From contig NZ_FQYX01000001.1 of assembly GCF_900141935.1 (NCBI RefSeq), positions 66,786 to 130,785 on the forward strand: a DNA stretch of 64,000 bases, given 5' to 3'. Origin of the DNA: Arenibacter nanhaiticus. Lineage in GTDB: Bacteria > Bacteroidota > Bacteroidia > Flavobacteriales > Flavobacteriaceae. The position numbers and the translations under genes are program-made. Shown one piece after another: positions 4,306 through 13,590 of the stretch. A model generated the notes under the pieces. That model had not been told where the DNA came from and did not search any database. It saw only the letters and a list, made by a program, of their open reading frames with translations. Position 1 is the first letter of the stretch. Each line of letters begins with the position of its first letter.

Positions 4306-4350
4306 TAGATCTACCGCGGAACTAGTGTCCGTTTTTACCGGATTAAGCAT

Positions 4351-5166
4351 TTATTTACTATTTTTATTCATCCTGATCCTTATTAGATGTCTTTTGTCAT
4401 CGGAAAACTCGCTTCTTCCATGCAACATTGTTTTATTATTAATAAAGATTAAATCTTTAGGTTCTAAATAAAAATATTGAGTAAAATAATTGTTAAGAAT
4501 TACTTCTTTTAAAATTTGATAGGCTTCAATTTGTGCTGTAGAACAAATGGCTTCTTTGTGCATTAAAGCTTTTTCAAAGGTATCTACTCTAAAGCGAATT
4601 TCATTTTCTCTTAATATTGGTCCATAGTTGAATTCAACCTTATCTTCTTTACTTTTTTTAAACACATTAGGAACTATAAAAGGATAATCTGTTGAAGAAA
4701 GTATTTCTATTAACTCCTTATTATTCTCTAATGCAGTAAGCGTTTTTAATATATTTTTTAAACTTAAAAGAGACGAAACTCCACCACCACATTCCGCTTT
4801 TTTCAAGGTCAACAAACCAAAATAATCTTCGGGGTAAAAACTATATTGACTATCCGTATGAAGTTCTGCTTCATGACTGTGTTCTGAATAAGTCTTTATA
4901 AAACTTTTAGATTTAGATTCTGATTTAATATCCCAAATGATTTTATTATTGCCATCATGAGAAATAGGTGTGCCAATTAATTGAGATAATTCGAGAAATT
5001 TTTGACCCGCTTCTTCAACATTATCTGTATCCACATTAAAATTCTGAATAACAATGTAACCTACAGCATCAAGGTCTTTTTTTATTCGGACAGCTAAATC
5101 AAAATAATTTAAATTTGAATCTTTATAGTCTAAATAATTGATATTTTGTATTAAAGTATTGGTCAT
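4351..5166 (-). CDS. TauD/clavaminate synthase-like Fe(II)/2-oxoglutarate dioxygenase
   Basis: A 271-residue non-heme iron oxygenase, expected to hydroxylate or desaturate a small molecule or nucleotide-linked precursor using O2 and 2-oxoglutarate. The metal triad is visible: HTD in AELHTDSQYSFYP and the distal His in NKTMLHGRSEF, followed by the 2-oxoglutarate-anchoring Arg in RHLIRIRM. It is the last gene of the minus-strand glycan operon, starting only 4 bases after the upstream glycosyltransferase stop. Base composition is AT-rich like the rest of the island. The substrate is unknown; the pairing with a second, unrelated 2OG oxygenase (6177-7058) is unusual. Confidence 0.82.
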   Translation of the reverse strand: MTNTLIQNINYLDYKDSNLNYFDLAVRIKKDLDAVGYIVIQNFNVDTDNVEEAGQKFLELSQLIGTPISHDGNNKIIWDIKSESKSKSFIKTYSEHSHEAELHTDSQYSFYPEDYFGLLTLKKAECGGGVSSLLSLKNILKTLTALENNKELIEILSSTDYPFIVPNVFKKSKEDKVEFNYGPILRENEIRFRVDTFEKALMHKEAICSTAQIEAYQILKEVILNNYFTQYFYLEPKDLIFINNKTMLHGRSEFSDDKRHLIRIRMNKNSK

Positions 5167-5170
5167 AATC

Positions 5171-6175
5171 TTAGAGTCGGTATGATTTAAGATATAAAAA
5201 CTCTTTAATTATTTGGTACGATGAATAGTTCACTTCCTTGCCATACAACAAACTTTTTTTCAGGTAGTTTAATTTTATCTTTTGCTCTTTTGTAAGGTGA
5301 GAAACAAAGTAGGACAAGTATAAATAGGAAGCATTTTTTTTAATTTCTAGATTGGATTTTTTCGTTTTATAATAGTTCATTAAATATTGCAACCCATCAA
5401 TGGCAAGCTTGGTTTTCGCTTCTAATGTAATGGGACTAAAAATACCTTGGTCATGCCTTCTATACACTGCTGGCTTAACATCGTATAAAAACTTTGCAGC
5501 ACCGAATTCGGCTAACTTTCCTCTTAATATAAAATCGCCACATACAATATTTTTCATATCCTCATCAAACAACTTGATAAGGTTATTTCTATACAAGAGT
5601 GATGCGGTATGTATCGAAACTTTTAACAAATCGTCTGCCTTAATAGTTCTATCGCTCTTGTAGTTAAAAACAAGGTGTTCTTTGGATGTTTCCTGATCTA
5701 TAACTTTTGTATTATGAAAACAAGCTACAAATTGTTCATTGTTCTCCAAAAATTCGACTCTTTTTTGGAGTGAGTTTTCATCCATCAGATAGTCATCTCC
5801 TTCAATAGTTGTTAGGTACTTTCCCTTAGCTGAAAAATTTGCAAAAACACTATTAAAGGTTCCAGAAGGTTTTCCGTTTATAGCAATATTGTTTGCTCTG
5901 GAATTTAATAAAAGCCTAATTTTATCTGGATATTTATCAGCATATTCCTTGCAAATTTCTCTAGTGCCATCAGATGATTCATCCTCGGCAATTAATATTT
6001 CAAAATCAAAATTCGTTTTCTGTTTTAATAATGAATCTAGACAGATTGCTATATACTTTGCATGATTGTATGTTACTACCTTAATAGTAGCCAAAGGCTC
6101 TTTTCCCGCACGTTTGTTTACATATTCTATAACAGGGCTTTTTTCATATGCTGTTTTAAAAGTCTTTAAATCCAT
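5171..6175 (-). CDS. Glycosyltransferase family 2
   Basis: A cytosolic or membrane-associated GT-A sugar transferase. The nucleotide-sugar fold begins with ATIKVVTYNHAKYIAICLDSLL, then FEILIAEDESSDGT and the metal-binding TIEGDDYL. A longer reading frame starts at 6265, but the ATG at 6175 (MDLKTFKTAY) lies one base after the stop of the upstream gene, so I take that as the start. The product is about 334 residues. The C-terminal third, rich in Lys, Leu and Tyr, has no recognised motif. Donor and acceptor are unknown; the operon suggests a cell-surface glycan. Confidence 0.85.
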   Translation of the reverse strand: MDLKTFKTAYEKSPVIEYVNKRAGKEPLATIKVVTYNHAKYIAICLDSLLKQKTNFDFEILIAEDESSDGTREICKEYADKYPDKIRLLLNSRANNIAINGKPSGTFNSVFANFSAKGKYLTTIEGDDYLMDENSLQKRVEFLENNEQFVACFHNTKVIDQETSKEHLVFNYKSDRTIKADDLLKVSIHTASLLYRNNLIKLFDEDMKNIVCGDFILRGKLAEFGAAKFLYDVKPAVYRRHDQGIFSPITLEAKTKLAIDGLQYLMNYYKTKKSNLEIKKNASYLYLSYFVSHLTKEQKIKLNYLKKSLLYGKEVNYSSYQIIKEFLYLKSYRL

Positions 6176-6176
6176 A

Positions 6177-7058
6177 TTAAAATTTAAAAATTTTAGGAAA
6201 TATTTTTTTATCGGAATAATTAGGGTTTCCGTCCGAATCTTTTTCACAAATTTGATCGTAGCCAATCACAATAAGATCTCCGTTATCCTTATATGCCTTT
6301 TGGTATTGGTTAGATTTATCCTGAAAATGCATTGCTAAGGCCATACGGTTCTTATTGCTTATGTTCGGATAACTGGCGTGAATGGTGTTACAATTATGAA
6401 AACTTACCTGCCCTTTCTTTAAAACCATAGCCGATTTAATATGGTTAGATTTGTTTTTTGACAAATAATTTTCAAAAGCGCTAAGGTCTTGGTTGTTAAA
6501 TGAGAAAAAAGATTTTAATTCTTTTTCATCTTTCCATTGATTACTTTGGTCAATATGTAAAAGGGGCCCCATATCTATAGTAACGTCTTGCAGAGGGATC
6601 CAAGCTGTTAGCATGTTTTGTGAAGTACAAGTTGGCCAATAGGCTTTATCTGAATGCCAACCAACAACTCCTTCTTTTTTTGCATTTGTAGGCAATTTGT
6701 TGATCAAAGAATCTGCAAACAAACGAATTTCATCTGTGCGAGCTAATTTTGCAGCAGTTGCCGTTATAAGCTGATGAAAACCTAAGGCCTGCAATTCTTT
6801 TTTTTGGAGCGTTACAAATTCATTATTTCTAATCACCGCTGTATCATCAAAAATATCATCTGCAATCCCTGTAAATTCAGAAAGATTGTAATCTTTTAAA
6901 CCATTGTAAAAATCTTTTGCACCTTTTTTTGCCTTGTCTATAATTTCTTCAGGCAGTATAAAATTACCAACAAACCAACCTTTCTTTTCATATTCTAAAA
7001 TCTGATCTTCAGTAGGCAACATTTCCATTTCTGCTGCTGATATTTTTTTTGCGTGCAT
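6177..7058 (-). CDS. Phytanoyl-CoA dioxygenase (PhyH) family Fe(II)/2OG oxygenase
   Basis: 293 residues with the PhyH iron site: HSD in GVVGWHSDKAYWPT, the distal His in NTIHASYPNIS, and the 2OG-binding Arg in NKNRMALAMHF. PhyH enzymes in sugar and natural-product clusters hydroxylate or otherwise oxidise carbon centres. The gene starts 5 bases after the ATP-grasp-like gene and ends one base before the next start, so translation is probably coupled. It is not related in sequence to the TauD-type enzyme two genes downstream, which implies two separate oxidation steps in one pathway. Substrate unknown. Confidence 0.85.
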   Translation of the reverse strand: MHAKKISAAEMEMLPTEDQILEYEKKGWFVGNFILPEEIIDKAKKGAKDFYNGLKDYNLSEFTGIADDIFDDTAVIRNNEFVTLQKKELQALGFHQLITATAAKLARTDEIRLFADSLINKLPTNAKKEGVVGWHSDKAYWPTCTSQNMLTAWIPLQDVTIDMGPLLHIDQSNQWKDEKELKSFFSFNNQDLSAFENYLSKNKSNHIKSAMVLKKGQVSFHNCNTIHASYPNISNKNRMALAMHFQDKSNQYQKAYKDNGDLIVIGYDQICEKDSDGNPNYSDKKIFPKIFKF

Positions 7059-7063
7059 ATTTT

Positions 7064-8275
7064 CTATGGTATATAATTGGCAATTTCACCTATATTTCCT
7101 ATTTCTTGATCTAGAATTAAACCGGTTGCCTTTCTATGATCTACTTTATTAGTAACCGGATGCGATGAAGTTCTAAAATCTCCAAATCCAAAATAATGGT
7201 CATCAAAAAACAAGGCTGTGCCGGTTACAAAATCATGAAAGACTTCGCCGTTAATGGTTCCTTTGATTGTTTTTTGAGGAATCCATTTTTGCAAAATAAA
7301 ATCTTTTAAATCGGGACTTTCAAAAAGGGCATCCCATTCTTCTAATGGAGTTACTAATCCTGCATAAATCTGTTGACTTTTACCTAAAGCTCTGTGCTTT
7401 ATAATCCATTCGTTTTTATTTTCTTTGGCGTTTTTCCAGACATCTTCGGCTTCATTTGCAGTATAAGTTGGAATATAAAACTTCTCAAAAAAGGATATTT
7501 CTTCTTGTGTTAAAACCTTATTTTGTAATTCCTTTTTACCTAATACAGAAAAAAATCTTTTATCGTGTATTAAAAACACCGTTCTAAAATCATTTATAAG
7601 ATTAGCCGAGATTAATTTCTTTAAGCTGTCTTTAGAAAAAGATAAAATTTCATCAAAGGAAAGTTCACTTACAACCCATGCCTTTTCTAATTTATCAAAA
7701 TTTTGATCTATTTCTGTATACAAAACTTCGTTAACTTCTAGCCCCGTTCTTTTTAGAATATCTGTATATAATTTTGATTCATTTCGTACATCTTCTCCTT
7801 TTAAAATACAAATAGAAGTTACTTCTTTTAAGTACTTATTTAGATGTTTATAAATAGGCGAATACTGATCTTTTAGTTTTACATTCTGCAAGCTTATAGG
7901 CTTAGTTTCTCTTGCCACAGCATCCATTAAGCCAGATAAAAACACCCCATTTAAAGGAAAACGACAGGTGATTTCTATTAGCTTAACTTGATTGTTGGTA
8001 TCGTAAACAAAATCCGTTCTATATGTCCCTATGTTATATTCTTTTTGATTAAAAACATCCAATACTTTTTCAACTCCTGCACATACTGGCATTAAATGTT
8101 TATAGTTCTTATAACCTATTACAAACTCCTTTATAAGTTTATACATTATTTTTTGAAGTTTACCAACATCTGCATTATGAGCAGCACTGATTACAATAGG
8201 TTCGTCAAAAATCCATTGTTGATAATAATCCTTTTTGCCTTTGATAAATTCTTGAACTGATTTTTCTAAAGTCAT
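7064..8275 (-). CDS. Possible ATP-grasp ligase of unassigned family
   Basis: About 403 residues. A longer start (GTG at 8278) exists, but ATG 8275 begins MTLEKSVQEF and overlaps nothing. I do not recognise a named family. Suggestive features: RTDFVYD followed by LIEITCRFPLNG, a C-terminal segment EWIIKHRALGKSQQIYAG resembling an ATP-grasp lysine/glycine-rich strand, then KDFILQKWIPQ and GFGDFRTSSHPVTNK. Such an enzyme could couple an amino acid or carboxylate to an amino sugar, which would fit the aminotransferase upstream. That role is inference. It sits between wbqC and the PhyH oxygenase with gaps of a few bases. Confidence 0.5.
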   Translation of the reverse strand: MTLEKSVQEFIKGKKDYYQQWIFDEPIVISAAHNADVGKLQKIMYKLIKEFVIGYKNYKHLMPVCAGVEKVLDVFNQKEYNIGTYRTDFVYDTNNQVKLIEITCRFPLNGVFLSGLMDAVARETKPISLQNVKLKDQYSPIYKHLNKYLKEVTSICILKGEDVRNESKLYTDILKRTGLEVNEVLYTEIDQNFDKLEKAWVVSELSFDEILSFSKDSLKKLISANLINDFRTVFLIHDKRFFSVLGKKELQNKVLTQEEISFFEKFYIPTYTANEAEDVWKNAKENKNEWIIKHRALGKSQQIYAGLVTPLEEWDALFESPDLKDFILQKWIPQKTIKGTINGEVFHDFVTGTALFFDDHYFGFGDFRTSSHPVTNKVDHRKATGLILDQEIGNIGEIANYIP

Positions 8276-8277
8276 CA

Positions 8278-9012
8278 CTATATTAAGCTATAGTTTTTAA
8301 TCAACTTCTTTGTACCATCTTTTCCATTATGCATTAACACATCAATAATGGAGAGGTGTGGTACAAACTCCATATTAAACTGATTGTATGAATATTCTTT
8401 TGGGTTGATAAAAAAAAGCGAGAGGTTATGCTTCGTAAAATAGGCTTTATCGTAAAGTTCGATTCCACCAGCAGCATTAATATACGTATGTGCTTTTTGT
8501 TGCTTACAGATTTCAACAATTCTTAAAGACTTAACTTCTTCTTTTATAATTTCATCATTTAACAACCTAGCTTCAAGCTTTAAAAATGCTTCATTTTTTG
8601 ATTTTATATTGGTTTTAAGATCTAGATAACTACAAATTTCTTTGATAATAGCACTGTTGTAATCATGTAACGAGCTTGTATTGGTCTGTATACACTTTTC
8701 AATTAGCGGATAAACCTCTTTAAAATACGCTGCTTTTTTGTAGTTAAAATAGATCGACTTTAACAACGGTCTTTTCCAGTTGGTACCATTTATTTCAATT
8801 TCGCTTATAGTTTTATAAGAACATTTTTTAATTACTGGAATTTTAATCTCAACAGCTAGTTTACGTCCTTTATCTAAAATTCTATTTTTTGTAATCCATG
8901 ATTTTTTTCGAAACGCTACATGCTCATATAAAATAAATTCATCTGATGCGTCTATCAACTGAAAATATCCTATATAAGGAAAAAAATAAGCTTGCATTAT
9001 TCCAATTTTCAT
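8278..9012 (-). CDS. WbqC family protein
   Basis: 244 residues typical of WbqC, named from O-antigen clusters. Diagnostic are the N-terminal MQAYFFPYIGYFQLID and YEHVAFRKKSWITKNRI, and the Tyr/Asn-rich C-terminal EYSYNQFNMEFVPHLSIIDVL. The biochemical role of the family is not settled; it usually sits beside DegT-type aminotransferases, as here, and may act in N-acylation of amino sugars (inference from context). The start at 9012 follows the flippase stop by 2 bases, consistent with one transcript. Confidence 0.88.
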   Translation of the reverse strand: MKIGIMQAYFFPYIGYFQLIDASDEFILYEHVAFRKKSWITKNRILDKGRKLAVEIKIPVIKKCSYKTISEIEINGTNWKRPLLKSIYFNYKKAAYFKEVYPLIEKCIQTNTSSLHDYNSAIIKEICSYLDLKTNIKSKNEAFLKLEARLLNDEIIKEEVKSLRIVEICKQQKAHTYINAAGGIELYDKAYFTKHNLSLFFINPKEYSYNQFNMEFVPHLSIIDVLMHNGKDGTKKLIKNYSLI

Positions 9013-9014
9013 TT

Positions 9015-10463
9015 CTAATTACGCTTTAAAATTAGTTTACCTAAACCTTTAACCTCAACTAAAGATTTACTTTTAAACAAAATTGCTAAGGTTAAATAGC
9101 AAACCAACGTAAAAACCACCCCAACCATTAATTGAAAAATGATGTGTAGACTGTCTGATTGTAAAAGTGCATAAGTACCTAAAAAATAAGATACACTGGC
9201 AAATATGACTATTGGAAACATATCTAATAATTGATCTAACGTACTGTAATCTATCAATTTTTTTCCGTAGTATGTATTCACAAATAAACCTAAAATAGAG
9301 CTGCCTATATTAGCATATAACAATCCAAAAATCCCCCAAAAATACCCAATAGCTAATGAAACACAAACAAGTAGTACCTTAATTACCTCTAGTTTTAAAA
9401 ACAAATCTGTTCGGTTAAAAATCTTAAAAATATTTAGATTACAAATATGTATTGGAATTAGGATTCCTGTTATTGCTAATAATTGAAAATACGGAACTGC
9501 CGGTAGCCATTTTTCGGTAAATAATATGAGAAACAAAGGTTTGGCTACCACTATTAACGCAACCATTAATGGGGTTACAATAAAAAACATACTCCTTATA
9601 ATTTTGGCGTAAAGCCTACCTACTTTTTCTTTATCGTCCTGGATTTTTGAGAGCAAAGGAAATGTTACACTAGAAACAACAGTACTCAATAAATGAACAG
9701 GGTAATTTCTAAAACTTTTTGAATGGTTAAAATGACCCAAAGTTTTTATGGAAAAATGTTTTCCGATAATAAACGAATAAGCTTCCCGCATTGCAGCATC
9801 CATTATGGAAGAAATCATTAGTTTGTAACCAAAATTTAAATGCTTTTTCAGTACTTTAAAAGAAAAACCTACTTGTGGTGTCCAACTAGAAAACATCCAA
9901 TAAAAAAGCACTTTAAAAACCAAGGTTGATAACTGCATGTAAACCAAACTCCATACTCCTTTGCCTAAATACGCACTTACTAACCCAACAATAGCACCGG
10001 TTATTACGGCAGGCCCGTTTAAGGCTGTTATTTTTTTAAAGGACATCTCCTTCATAAAAATACTATACTGTATATAAAAAAAAGCAGAAATAATAAAACT
10101 TAGCCCATAAACCCTAATTAAGGGAACTATAAGATCATTATTAAAATATCTAGATAAAATCGGAGCTGTAAAAAATAAAATAGGATAAAGTAAAAGACTT
10201 ATAATCAAATTACCATAAAAAACGGCATTGTAATCTGAGGAGGTCGCTTTATTATCTCTAATAATAGAATTCCCCATTCCTCCCTCAATAATAGCATTTC
10301 CTAAACTTATAAAAATTGTAATTATACCCAAAAGGCCAAAGTCATTTGGAGTTAAAATACGCGCAAGGAAAATTGTTACAATAAAGGTAATTCCCTTTAA
10401 AAGTACATTATCTACAAAGGACCAAATAAGTCCCTTTTTTAATAAGTTTTGTAGTACACTCAC
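9015..10463 (-). CDS. Wzx-type polysaccharide flippase (WzxC-like, PST/MOP superfamily)
   Basis: 482 residues and about 12 to 14 hydrophobic segments, the length and layout of lipid-linked oligosaccharide flippases. It begins LQNLLKKGLIWSFVDNVLLKG and contains ARILTPNDFGLLGI, a motif seen in WzxC/TuaB-like members. It would move the undecaprenyl-linked repeat unit made by this operon across the inner membrane. The gene lies 2 bases after the aminotransferase stop. A second, unrelated-looking flippase occurs at 42143, so this one is probably dedicated to the island's glycan. Confidence 0.9.
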   Translation of the reverse strand: MSVLQNLLKKGLIWSFVDNVLLKGITFIVTIFLARILTPNDFGLLGIITIFISLGNAIIEGGMGNSIIRDNKATSSDYNAVFYGNLIISLLLYPILFFTAPILSRYFNNDLIVPLIRVYGLSFIISAFFYIQYSIFMKEMSFKKITALNGPAVITGAIVGLVSAYLGKGVWSLVYMQLSTLVFKVLFYWMFSSWTPQVGFSFKVLKKHLNFGYKLMISSIMDAAMREAYSFIIGKHFSIKTLGHFNHSKSFRNYPVHLLSTVVSSVTFPLLSKIQDDKEKVGRLYAKIIRSMFFIVTPLMVALIVVAKPLFLILFTEKWLPAVPYFQLLAITGILIPIHICNLNIFKIFNRTDLFLKLEVIKVLLVCVSLAIGYFWGIFGLLYANIGSSILGLFVNTYYGKKLIDYSTLDQLLDMFPIVIFASVSYFLGTYALLQSDSLHIIFQLMVGVVFTLVCYLTLAILFKSKSLVEVKGLGKLILKRN

Positions 10464-10465
10464 TC

Positions 10466-11563
10466 TTAATAGCTGATAACTGCACTGTCCTTAATAGCCT
10501 TGCAAATTATTCGCCCTATTCTTTCCACTTCTATAAGAGCCAACTCATTGTACAAGGGAAGACAAAGAACTCTTCTAGAGACGTCTTCGGCAATAGGAAG
10601 CTTTACTTGCGCCACATAAGGTAAAGACTCTGAAAGTAGTGGATAAAAATATCTTCTGGGGATTATATTTTCTTTTAAAAGTGATTCAATACAAACTTCT
10701 AATTCCATTTCAGAATTAAAAATAACTGGGTAATAAGCGTACGAAATAGAAGCATTATCTGCCCACAACTGTTTTTTTATAGAGCCACCTAAAATACTGT
10801 CATAAAGAAGACTTATCTTTTTCCTGTTTTCCCAATTTTCTTCAATATATTTAAGGTTTACCAAACCCATAGCCGCGTGGAACTCAGAATTTTTTCCGTT
10901 AATTCCTAAATTGGCAAAAGAAACAGCACTCTTAAAACCAAAGTTAATCATCAGTCTTAATTCCTTTAATAGTTTTTTGTCTTTGGTAACAATAAACCCC
11001 CCTTCTGTAGTGTGGTATATTTTTGTTGCGTGTGTACTACAAATAGAAATATCTCCAAATTCAAAAATTGACTTACCTTCAATTTTTACTCCAAAGGCAT
11101 GTGCTCCATCATAAATAACTTTAAGATTGTGTTTTTTGGCAATTTTTTCAATTTCAACAACATCACAAGGGTTTCCAAAAACATGTGTTGCAACAATAGC
11201 AACTGTTTTTGGTGTAATGGCTGCTTCTATTTTTGAAGCATCGATATTTAGCGTATCAGCATCAATATCAACAAAGACTGGTTTATTATTTTCCCAAACA
11301 ATGCTGCTTGTTGTTGCTACAAAAGAGAAGGGAGTAGTAATAATTTCACCTTCAAGGCAAAGTGCTTTTATAGCTAATTGTAAGGCCATGGTGCCATTCA
11401 CAACAAGCAATAAATTTGAAACTGATAATTCTTTTATCAATTCACTTTCTAATCTTTCTACTAAAGGGCCAGAATTGGTAAGCCAATGTGATTCCCAAAT
11501 AATGGAAATCATTTTTTCATATTCTTCCTTTGGAGGGAGAAAGGGTTTTGTTATTGGAATCAT
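10466..11563 (-). CDS. DegT/DnrJ/EryC1/StrS PLP-dependent sugar aminotransferase
   Basis: 365 residues. It begins with the typical IPITKPFLPPKEEYEKM and NSGPLVERLESEL, with TTPFSFVATTSSI and VYDGAHAFGV (PLP contacts). The catalytic lysine is in STHATKIYHTTEGGFIVT. Such enzymes aminate a keto-sugar nucleotide, most often at C3 or C4. The operon has no sugar 4,6-dehydratase in view, so the keto-sugar must be supplied elsewhere. The first gene of the operon, or second if the small reading frame upstream is real. Family assignment is firm, sugar specificity unknown. Confidence 0.92.
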   Translation of the reverse strand: MIPITKPFLPPKEEYEKMISIIWESHWLTNSGPLVERLESELIKELSVSNLLLVVNGTMALQLAIKALCLEGEIITTPFSFVATTSSIVWENNKPVFVDIDADTLNIDASKIEAAITPKTVAIVATHVFGNPCDVVEIEKIAKKHNLKVIYDGAHAFGVKIEGKSIFEFGDISICSTHATKIYHTTEGGFIVTKDKKLLKELRLMINFGFKSAVSFANLGINGKNSEFHAAMGLVNLKYIEENWENRKKISLLYDSILGGSIKKQLWADNASISYAYYPVIFNSEMELEVCIESLLKENIIPRRYFYPLLSESLPYVAQVKLPIAEDVSRRVLCLPLYNELALIEVERIGRIICKAIKDSAVISY

Positions 11564-11573
11564 TAGTTAATGA

Positions 11574-11831
11574 TCATTTATTTAAATTATTTAAATCTAT
11601 AAAATCGGTATCACCGTTTTTATCACTTAATAAGATATCAAATCGGGGACCTGTTTTAAAAGCTCTCCTTTTTAAAAAAAATAATTTATACAGTGCTAGA
11701 ATAGGAATGTTATGATAATTTAAATTTATAGTCTTTCCGTCGTATATGATTTTTGCAGCCCCTTGTGAAGAAAATACGAATTCATGCTGAATAGAAATGG
11801 TATCGTTTACCCAATTTATATGTAAGTCCAA
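11574..11831 (-). CDS. Hypothetical protein, 85 residues, AT-rich island
   Basis: An open frame begins MDLHINWVNDTISIQHEF and ends at a TGA 10 bases before the aminotransferase start, in the same direction. I recognise no family. It contains alternating hydrophobic and polar stretches suggesting beta strands (QGAAKIIYDGKTINL), then a basic KRRAFKTGPRF segment. The spacing and composition fit the operon, so it may be its first gene. It could also be the remnant of a longer gene cut by rearrangement next to the ISAon1 remnant. No promoter element of the TAnnTTTG type was evident upstream. Confidence 0.4.
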   Translation of the reverse strand: MDLHINWVNDTISIQHEFVFSSQGAAKIIYDGKTINLNYHNIPILALYKLFFLKRRAFKTGPRFDILLSDKNGDTDFIDLNNLNK

Positions 11832-12075
11832 AAATTACTCTTATTTTTTTCTTTTGCTTCTAAACTATGTAACTACTAAAGTTTACCCCTGCTTTTACAC
11901 TATATTTTTCATCCTGTGGATAAGTAGTAAAAGGTAAACCAAGGTCTTCAATATTTATAAATAAAGATCATATCCATTTTATTATATCTTAAAAATGGGA
12001 AACAAAGATACCCGTAATAATTAAACTTAAGTGCCTATTTGATATGTTTTTTGACGTACAAGAGCTTAAGGATCA

Positions 12076-12617
12076 ATGTCAAAATTTCTATTTTTTTTGT
12101 GTTCGAAAACTAGACAGTTAACCCAGCTTAATGCTGCCTCTCTATTGGCTCTTGTTTTTCCCGAAGGGTTATTGGAATATTTTTATGCTTTAAACTATCA
12201 TAGTACTCCAAAAAATAAGAAGGCATACACGGAAAAACTTACTATTTACCTTGCAGAAAAAAAGGACGATTTTGGAGCAATACAAGGACCGTGTTTGTAA
12301 AGCTTGTGGGTTTGTCGAGCCACGAATAATCGATGATTTTCCTATCAGGAGCAGGCTGGTAAGCTTACGTGTCCGGGGTCGTAGATGGGAAGGCGAGACG
12401 GACAAAGGGACCATAAAGATTAGCCGTGATTGGGATACCATCATTTCACAGGGAGCTCGTTTGACCGCTGAGTTTGCTGCTTTTTTAAAAGTATTTGGTC
12501 ACTACCAAGGCCAATGACTGCTAAACCATTGGCGGGTTTTATAAAGTCAACGGTAAAAACTACCACAACAGTTTCGGGCTTACTTAAGCGAGTTCAAACA
12601 ATGGGAGGATAAGAAAC
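12076..12617 (+). pseudogene. Degenerate ISAon1-type transposase (N-terminal region)
   Basis: Pieces of one protein are spread over at least three frames. 12076-12260 reads ...NAASLLALVFPEGLLEYF...YTEKLTIYLAEKK. 12260-12517 continues in another frame with CKACGFVEPRIIDDFPIRSR and the basic RVRGRRWEGETDKG. About 12533-12617 gives GGFYKVNGKNYH and then, after another shift, QFRAYLSEFKQWEDKK. This order matches the ISAon1 transposase N-terminal region seen in many Bacteroidota. The catalytic half is missing, so the element is dead. It lies at the right edge of the AT-rich island and may mark how that island arrived. Confidence 0.7.
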
Positions 12618-13023: not shown

Positions 13024-13058
13024 TTGTAAAAACCATATTTTGTACATAAATTTGTACT
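13024..13058 (+). promoter_or_regulatory. Promoter and operator of yefM-yoeB
   Basis: A -33 TTG (13024-13026) and a -7 TAAATTTG (13047-13054) are 20 bases apart, a good Bacteroidota promoter. TGTACA at 13041-13046 and TGTACT at 13053-13058 flank the -7 element with centres 12 bp apart. The enterobacterial YefM operator also uses TGTACA cores at this spacing, so autoregulation by the antitoxin is likely. Confidence 0.65.
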
Positions 13059-13075
13059 TAATAAAATACAATATT

Positions 13076-13330
13076 ATGCTACTAACAACTGTTTCAGAAT
13101 TTAGAAAAGATATTAAAACTTACTTAGACCTAGTTGTAAAAAACTTTGAGACTTTGATTATAAATCGTGGAAAAGATTCCGGAATTGTAGTGATGTCCTT
13201 GCAAGAATACAATTCTTTAATGGCTACAAATCACGAACTGTCTTCTCGAAAGAATGAATTAAGATTAGATGCTGCAATTGACAAACTAAAAAACGGAAAG
13301 ACTTTTAACAAAGACCTAATCGAAGATTAA
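13076..13330 (+). CDS. yefM: Antitoxin YefM (Phd/YefM family)
   Basis: It neutralises YoeB and represses its own operon. The longest frame begins at a TTG at 13040, but this lies inside the promoter/operator, so the ATG at 13076 (MLLTTVSEFRKDIKTYLD) is taken as start, giving about 84 residues. The N-terminal DNA-binding part has the family pattern VSEFRKDIK...INRGKDSGIVVMSLQEYNSL; the C-terminal tail, rich in Lys, Asn and Asp, is the likely toxin-binding segment. The toxin gene starts 2 bases after the stop. The pair sits alone between repeats, as expected for a mobile addiction module. Confidence 0.88.
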   Translation: MLLTTVSEFRKDIKTYLDLVVKNFETLIINRGKDSGIVVMSLQEYNSLMATNHELSSRKNELRLDAAIDKLKNGKTFNKDLIED

Positions 13331-13332
13331 AA

Positions 13333-13590
13333 ATGAAGTATATATTCGTTGACGAGTCTTGGGAAGATTATTTGTATTGGCAAAAAACTGATAAGAAAAA
13401 GCTAAAGAAAATAAATGAACTTCTGAAAGACATCGCTCGGAACCCTTTTGATGGCATTGGAAAACCCGAACCGTTAAAACATAAATATGCTGGATTTTGG
13501 TCAAGCCGAATTGATAGTGAACATAGACTGATTTACCAATATAATGAATCAGAAATCTTAATTGCGAAATGCAGATTTCATTATGACTGA
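13333..13590 (+). CDS. yoeB: Toxin YoeB, ribosome-dependent mRNA endonuclease
   Basis: 85 residues, close to the 84 of the E. coli protein. Conserved segments are ESWEDYLYWQKTDKK, INELLKDIARNPFDGIGKPE, LKHKYAGFWSSRID and EHRLIYQY. The catalytic C-terminal His-Tyr is present (CRFHYD, with one extra Asp). It cleaves mRNA in the ribosomal A site when free of YefM. There is no sign of truncation, so the module looks active. The gene overlaps nothing and is followed after about 55 bases by the second hairpin element. Confidence 0.92.
   Translation: MKYIFVDESWEDYLYWQKTDKKKLKKINELLKDIARNPFDGIGKPEPLKHKYAGFWSSRIDSEHRLIYQYNESEILIAKCRFHYD

Follow-up and report, generated by a model that had tools for sequence, protein, structure and literature searches.

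The stretch analyzed here is a 64,000-nt window of Arenibacter nanhaiticus contig NZ_FQYX01000001.1, to which all coordinates below refer unless another locus is named, and its minus strand carries a low-GC block of seven intact open reading frames (ORFs; 4351-11563). We lean, with modest confidence, toward reading this block as a horizontally moved cassette for the N-acyl group (R-group) of a surface glycan, in which a DegT-type aminotransferase would provide an amino-sugar and a four-gene core, comprising a WbqC-family protein, an ATP-grasp ligase and two Fe(II)/2-oxoglutarate oxygenases of the PhyH and TauD types, would provide an oxidized amide group to be hung on it. Evidence for this reading comes from the family relationship of the ligase, the co-inheritance of ligase and oxygenases, the predicted fold of WbqC, and the recurrent glycan context of the aminotransferase.

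A four-gene core with a Cp1B-related ligase

The ligase gene (7064-8278) encodes a protein that falls below the Pfam cut-off (TTL, 18.1 of 20.1 bits). When the single protein was searched against 177,635 PDB sequences at E<=10, the sole chain matched was Cp1B (E 7.5e-5, residues 203-320). A profile built from the ligase, three close relatives and a homolog from a metagenome-assembled genome (MAG) matched Cp1B at 5.9e-15, and addition of two distant Flavobacteriaceae homologs brought this to 1.3e-25 in an alignment of two segments, after which homoglutathione synthetase ranked second (~1e-4); in these profile searches the N-terminal segment also aligns to Cp1B. Among the Cp1B residues that have been mutated (R139, D141, E163 and N165, with PDB-chain numbering offset by 15 for all four), the Arg, Asp and Glu correspond to R86, D88 and E101 of the window protein and are invariant in 7 aligned homologs, whereas the Asn is not conserved. 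The sequence searches place the protein, which the original prediction had listed as a possible ATP-grasp ligase, in an amide-forming, Cp1B-related ATP-grasp family. According to the sections of the E-64 study cited here, the role of Cp1B in E-64 biosynthesis is to couple L-amino acids to (2S,3S)-epoxysuccinic acid, an epoxide already formed by a 2-oxoglutarate oxygenase, and an amide bond synthetase (ABS) then adds an amine; strains without the oxygenase gene gave malyl and fumaryl products, and Cp1B-like proteins are noted in a few bacteria (PMC12568646).

Two oxygenase genes accompany the ligase, one of the PhyH type (6177-7058; PF05721, 74 bits) and one of the TauD/CsiD type (4351-5166; PF02668, 75 bits; PF08943 CsiD, 28.7 bits against a cut-off of 27). 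The HxD...H motif of Fe(II)/2-oxoglutarate oxygenases is present in both: the PhyH protein has H135/D137 and distal H227, together with R238, and the TauD protein has H103/D105 and distal H249, all invariant in 4 orthologs of each. MysH (E 2.4e-10) and SnoK are the nearest solved relatives of the PhyH protein. All four TauD orthologs match both PF02668 and PF08943 at E<=0.01, and the window protein has a weak NCBIfam match to GlaH (23 of 333 bits). The CsiD family includes a glutarate hydroxylase, and the CsiD match hints at a dicarboxylate substrate. A "doubly oxidized" product, as originally proposed, need not follow from this pair, since both enzymes could modify a single building block one after the other.

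The close ligase is sparsely distributed and travels with both oxygenases. It occurs in 3/18 genomes of the same genus (the window's own included) and in one further family genome among 40 relatives; a single-protein query at E<=0.001 found it in 2/397 family-sample genomes, own included. The TauD subfamily (E<=1e-15) and the PhyH subfamily (E<=1e-20), searched in samples of the same size and with the same genome handles, were each found in the same 2/397 genomes, namely the window's own and Flavicella sediminum. Across the phylum, the ligase profile matched 5/395 genomes, own included, one of them a weak partial match (G605, E 2.3e-4) that was dropped when no homolog was seen in its locus. 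An 84,980-species scan returned only four ligase loci, all known from the whole-genome search, although the two derived peptide patterns are narrow and make this a weak test of rarity; the plasmid collection and viral contigs searched contained no ligase. In 4/4 genomes with the close ligase, the WbqC, ATP-grasp, PhyH and TauD genes form a single run, into which the three Arenibacter genomes place the family 2 glycosyltransferase (GT2) gene between PhyH and TauD. The expectation that the oxygenases would be co-inherited with the ligase, not randomly associated, was thus borne out, and by these counts the association is not random, although it is drawn from two lineages.

Distant ligase homologs lie in other surroundings. 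In both G752 (L015) and G656 (L016), one sits beside a GT2-like gene and a gene for a 398-aa protein; the L015 neighbors match radical SAM/SPASM, methyltransferase and GT2 families, with AMP-binding below its cut-off. These loci are possibly another uncharacterized pseudopeptide cluster.

The fourth core member, WbqC (8278-9012; PF08889, 213.6 bits against a cut-off of 21.3), found no relative at E<=10 as a single protein against PDB sequences. An AlphaFold model from eight sequences reached a predicted local distance difference test (pLDDT) score of 83.5 and a predicted TM-score (pTM) of 0.85. When the top 1000 Foldseek chains were realigned to this model with VIA-align, BshC (4wbd) was best (Z 14.3, root-mean-square deviation 3.7, 235/244 residues), and the next matches, at Z 7.3 and below, were class I aminoacyl-tRNA synthetases, pantothenate synthetases and adenylyltransferases. 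The predicted WbqC fold may thus resemble that of BshC, an enzyme that adds cysteine to an amino-sugar amine. WbqC genes were found in 47 plasmid-collection records, of which four were opened: DegT is the immediate neighbor of WbqC in three of these and is one gene removed from it in the other. Six further WbqC genes were found in viral contigs. In the literature cited here, DegT accompanies WbqC or is found close to it both in B. thetaiotaomicron (BT2884-85; PMC10434189) and in an insert in the flagellar region of Dickeya (PMC9650423); the family is described as functionally uncharacterized or as possibly O-antigen-related (PMC5532660, PMC7848895, PMC5507510). A possible link between wbq gene names and E. 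coli O121 (N-acetylglycyl on Qui4N of its O-antigen) was not confirmed, with no supporting paper among those listed, and is not used as evidence; a Proteus WbqC gene detected no similar DNA in E. coli genomes. In Flavicella, 11 AACC copies (L007, 8489-8532) stand between a promoter-like sequence and the WbqC start codon, which they immediately precede, and may form a phase-variation tract; the Arenibacter copies showed no 2-6-base unit repeated at least 5 times.

A recurrent DegT-Wzx module

The remaining three genes encode a DegT-type pyridoxal phosphate (PLP)-dependent sugar aminotransferase (10466-11563; PF01041, 276 bits against a cut-off of 19.8), a Wzx/MOP-family flippase (9015-10463; Polysacc_synt_3, PF13440, 284 bits) and a GT2 glycosyltransferase (5171-6175; PF00535, 75.7 bits), whose start was taken as ATG, a longer TTG-start frame at 6265 being one that would overlap PhyH. 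The best NCBIfam match of the aminotransferase is DesI at 243 bits, below the 650 cut-off, which leaves it assignable to the DegT family only; it probably acts on dTDP-4-keto-6-deoxyglucose. Because rmlB, rmlA, rmlC and rmlD, all over curated cut-offs, lie in a glycan locus of the same genome upstream of the window, this presumed substrate should be available. The only Arenibacter glycan we saw described, in the part of the literature consulted, is the A. certesii lipooligosaccharide (PMC4052302).

Related DegT loci elsewhere reveal the same context. A search returned 30, two of them the window's and Flavicella's own, and ten were read with their flanks (the eight best others, G256 and G377; G095 and G257, of intermediate rank, were passed over since their matches contain a stop). 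A Wzx homolog is adjacent in 7/10, a GT2 homolog is found in 6/10, rmlA is present in 5/10 and WbqC is adjacent in 3/10; one locus (L102) holds a 37-residue WbqC-like scrap. The genes that follow DegT vary, from WbqC with a GNAT acetyltransferase, to two HpcH/HpaI lyases with a MaoC-domain and a PglD-type protein, to a PglD-type protein alone. DegT-Wzx, often with rmlA/rmlB and GT2, is therefore a recurrent module, and the acyl module that goes with it is exchangeable. Amino-sugar synthesis, flippase and glycosyltransferase genes are found together with exchangeable acyl genes, which is the makeup of a cassette.

The Flavicella genome separates these two parts. Its WbqC, ATP-grasp, PhyH and TauD genes form one run near ATP-synthase genes, without DegT, Wzx or GT2, and its DegT homolog lies 1.3 Mb away inside a polysaccharide locus. 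That homolog is 61% identical to the window's and is narrowly the best among the 348 other genomes searched (475 vs 471 bits); it stands beside a Wzx (E 8e-122 to the window's), rmlA and rmlB, the last two scoring above their curated cut-offs, and a GT2 (2.5e-38) lies three genes on, with a polysaccharide pyruvyl transferase close by. Directly 3' of this DegT homolog stands an ATP-grasp gene of another family (ATPgrasp_Ter; L067, 17335-18612). The DegT, Wzx, GT2 and rml surroundings uphold the original assignment to an amino-sugar or glycan locus. The further idea of one set of enzymes holds for the tight core of WbqC, ATP-grasp, PhyH and TauD but not for DegT, Wzx and GT2, which in Flavicella and the ten other loci belong to a separate, general module.

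Integrity, mobility and selection of the block

From 11563 downward the gene order is DegT, Wzx, WbqC, ATP-grasp, PhyH, GT2, TauD, adjacent genes being separated by about -1 to +5 bases, and six of the seven proteins (all except the ligase) exceed their Pfam cut-offs. GC content is 28-34% in the seven genes and 29-33% per 1-kb window, as against ~46% in the flanking purD and UXS genes. The packed, AT-rich, minus-strand arrangement, with its order and coordinates, is therefore as first described, and of the "seven to eight" genes proposed, the seven stand. An 85-aa ORF at 11574-11831, the candidate eighth, has no Pfam match and only a weak outer-membrane beta-barrel match in NCBIfam (26.4 of 135 bits). 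Since frame changes break it in both relatives that carry the region, it was ruled out as a gene and is a decayed remnant, one that travels with the block.

The block lies beside purD, and occupies this same site in Arenibacter sp. 6A1. A stretch spanning 4350-12155 is common to A. aquaticus (90% identity over 4350-11596; 77% over 11714-12155), where the copy is found elsewhere in the genome. Because the A. aquaticus copy is at a different site, the block moves; the purD neighborhoods of A. aquaticus and of G001-G004 (7-11 kb read) contain no homolog of the seven genes. Gene order was retained after relocation, and all seven frames are intact in the three genomes. The ratio of nonsynonymous to synonymous substitution (dN/dS) is 0.095-0.306 across all 18 comparisons of the seven genes, with dS saturated against Flavicella, which indicates that all seven are under purifying selection. 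The check for disrupted frames in relatives, which had been proposed as a way to refute the pathway, thus came out in its favor.

Several features adjoin the block. Short ORFs at its upstream end (12190-12517) look by eye like mobile-element debris; they are alignable with Arenibacter 6A1 to 12386, and 12251-12514 has no Pfam match. A YefM-YoeB type toxin-antitoxin pair follows at 13040-13590. No anti-phage defense model matched at E<=0.001.

Proposed pathway and its alternatives

In the pathway that we infer, including its substrates, step order, the WbqC reaction and the oxidized nature of its product, DegT would transaminate dTDP-4-keto-6-deoxyglucose, supplied by rmlA and rmlB of the upstream glycan locus, to a dTDP-4-amino-4,6-dideoxyhexose. 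The TauD- and PhyH-type oxygenases would oxidize a small carboxylic acid or amino acid, and the Cp1B-like ligase would couple two such building blocks through an acyl-phosphate to form an amide. WbqC, with its predicted BshC-like fold, would attach the acid so formed to the sugar's 4-amino group, after which GT2 would transfer the decorated sugar and Wzx would export the unit. With a 2-oxoglutarate oxygenase acting first, an ATP-grasp ligase next and another amide ligase last, the scheme would follow the sequence of E-64 biosynthesis, except that the last amine would be an amino-sugar. Comparable decorations are described in a review of marine glycans (PMC3210612). For 4-amino-4,6-dideoxyglucose it reports N-acetyl-D-alanyl from Pseudoalteromonas and cites, from elsewhere, N-acetylglycyl and N-[(R)-3-hydroxybutyryl]-L-alanyl; in P. 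rubra a diamino uronic acid carries N-malyl at position 3, and in Flexibacter maritimus a diamino-sugar is amidated at position 4 with 2-hydroxyglutaryl (PMC3210612). Amino-sugars that bear aminoacyl or hydroxy-dicarboxylic amides have therefore been reported, and the predicted product class exists (PMC3210612). A bolder version, which we offer only tentatively and regard as doubtful, is that the block builds an E-64-like pseudopeptide, in which an oxidized dicarboxylic acid, possibly an epoxide or hydroxy acid, is amide-linked to an amino acid and hung on the glycan amino-sugar; WbqC would then be the first recognized representative of a widespread group of amide ligases that have a BshC fold and aminoacylate 4-amino-sugars.

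A number of results weigh against a glycan cassette of this kind. For the ligase, Cp1B N165 corresponds to T103 in the window protein and to G in distant homologs, and the structure model is poor and unusable (pLDDT 49.2). For WbqC, Foldseek with the model gave no match at E<=0.001, and hhalign of 11 WbqC proteins against BshC from eight genomes gave a best probability of 1.2%, from thin alignments (Neff ~2.7). Such DegT proteins are common, occurring in 80/349 genomes at E<=1e-100, and, apart from the window's genome and that of Flavicella, eight have one at 58-61% identity; ligase, PhyH and TauD homologs were found in 0/10 of the DegT loci read. The 1.3 Mb between core and DegT make the link to a sugar indirect in Flavicella. 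Finally, the distant ligase homologs of G656 and G752 (24-25% identity) lack PhyH, TauD and WbqC in the 19-20 kb read, and a Bacteroidetes MAG locus (L014) that pairs DegT (47% identity) with a ligase (28%) and PhyH (23%), alongside short-chain dehydrogenase/reductase (SDR), ketosynthase III, PglD-type and GT2 genes, has a PhyH too distant to extend the association, which is therefore limited to the close subfamily.

The same split in Flavicella, where the core stands near ATP-synthase genes and apart from any glycan locus, would suit a core that makes a free small molecule, such as an E-64-like protease inhibitor or another pseudopeptide, with its glycan neighbors in Arenibacter a coincidence. 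The nearest solved ligase does come from a fungal small-molecule pathway, and the distant ligases of two Flavobacteriaceae lie beside radical SAM, methyltransferase, GT2 and sub-threshold AMP-binding genes. We nevertheless consider this quite unlikely: the core includes WbqC, which adjoins or lies one gene from DegT in the four opened plasmid loci (of 47 matching records) and adjoins it in 3/10 DegT loci, and the same seven gene types are present in both lineages. It is also unlikely, if a little less so, that the sugar amine is acylated (or a uronic acid amidated) directly by the ATP-grasp enzyme, with WbqC having no part in amide formation. Because WbqC follows DegT without such a ligase in those 3/10 loci, WbqC and the ligase could each act alone, and the match of WbqC to BshC is by predicted fold only. 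On the other side, we know of no Cp1B-group ligase that acts on a nucleotide sugar, a point not searched exhaustively, and the amine substrates described for Cp1B in the cited sections are amino acids (PMC12568646). Low GC, mobility, the decayed remnant at the upstream end and a sparse distribution could also be taken to mark a decaying or randomly assembled island without a single pathway. Intact frames in three genomes, the low dN/dS values, the order kept after relocation and the co-occurrence of the core genes largely refute that reading, which we regard as highly improbable.

Set beside known systems, a glycan N-acyl cassette most resembles the R-group sets of Flavobacterium psychrophilum (wfp genes), strain-variable O-antigen genes described in the cited part of that work as making an N-acyl group, attaching it to an amino-sugar at position 4 and affecting antigenicity (PMC6519341). 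Those sets differ in using a fatty-acid-like route or PglD-type acyltransferases on UDP-Qui2NAc4N (PMC6519341), whereas the seven genes of the block studied here include an ATP-grasp ligase, WbqC and a pair of 2-oxoglutarate oxygenases but neither a ketosynthase nor a PglD. The Cp1A-Cp1B-Cp1D pathway of E-64 is alike in combining a 2-oxoglutarate oxygenase (Cp1A, likened here by its description), a related ATP-grasp ligase and a second amide-forming enzyme, but this fungal pathway yields a free small molecule, has related clusters in cyanobacteria and comes with no sugar genes named in the cited sections, and its third enzyme is an adenylating ABS (ANL-type) where the proposed counterpart in the window is WbqC (PMC12568646). 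No AMP-binding match was found among the seven window proteins in Pfam; the block does not have the composition of an E-64-type cluster, and the likeness is one of working only. BshC, on which the predicted WbqC fold superposes, is ~2x as long and has no detectable sequence relation to it, and the mycosporine oxygenase MysH belongs to a different pathway, so that its substrate is not transferable to the PhyH protein.

Searches of open-licence papers on WbqC, on ATP-grasp with O-antigen and on Cp1B with ATP-grasp turned up no description of this gene set, and the latter two no link of a Cp1B-type ATP-grasp ligase to glycan biosynthesis. Our best reading is that the block belongs among the exchangeable N-acyl cassettes known for surface glycans, as a variant in which the ATP-grasp/oxygenase/WbqC acyl module would be new. 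If this is right, it would tie to glycan biosynthesis a kind of ligase not previously linked to sugars, would suggest a concrete, testable function for the widespread and unexplained WbqC family, and would make the gene set a candidate route to the aminoacyl and hydroxy-dicarboxylic amides found on amino-sugars.

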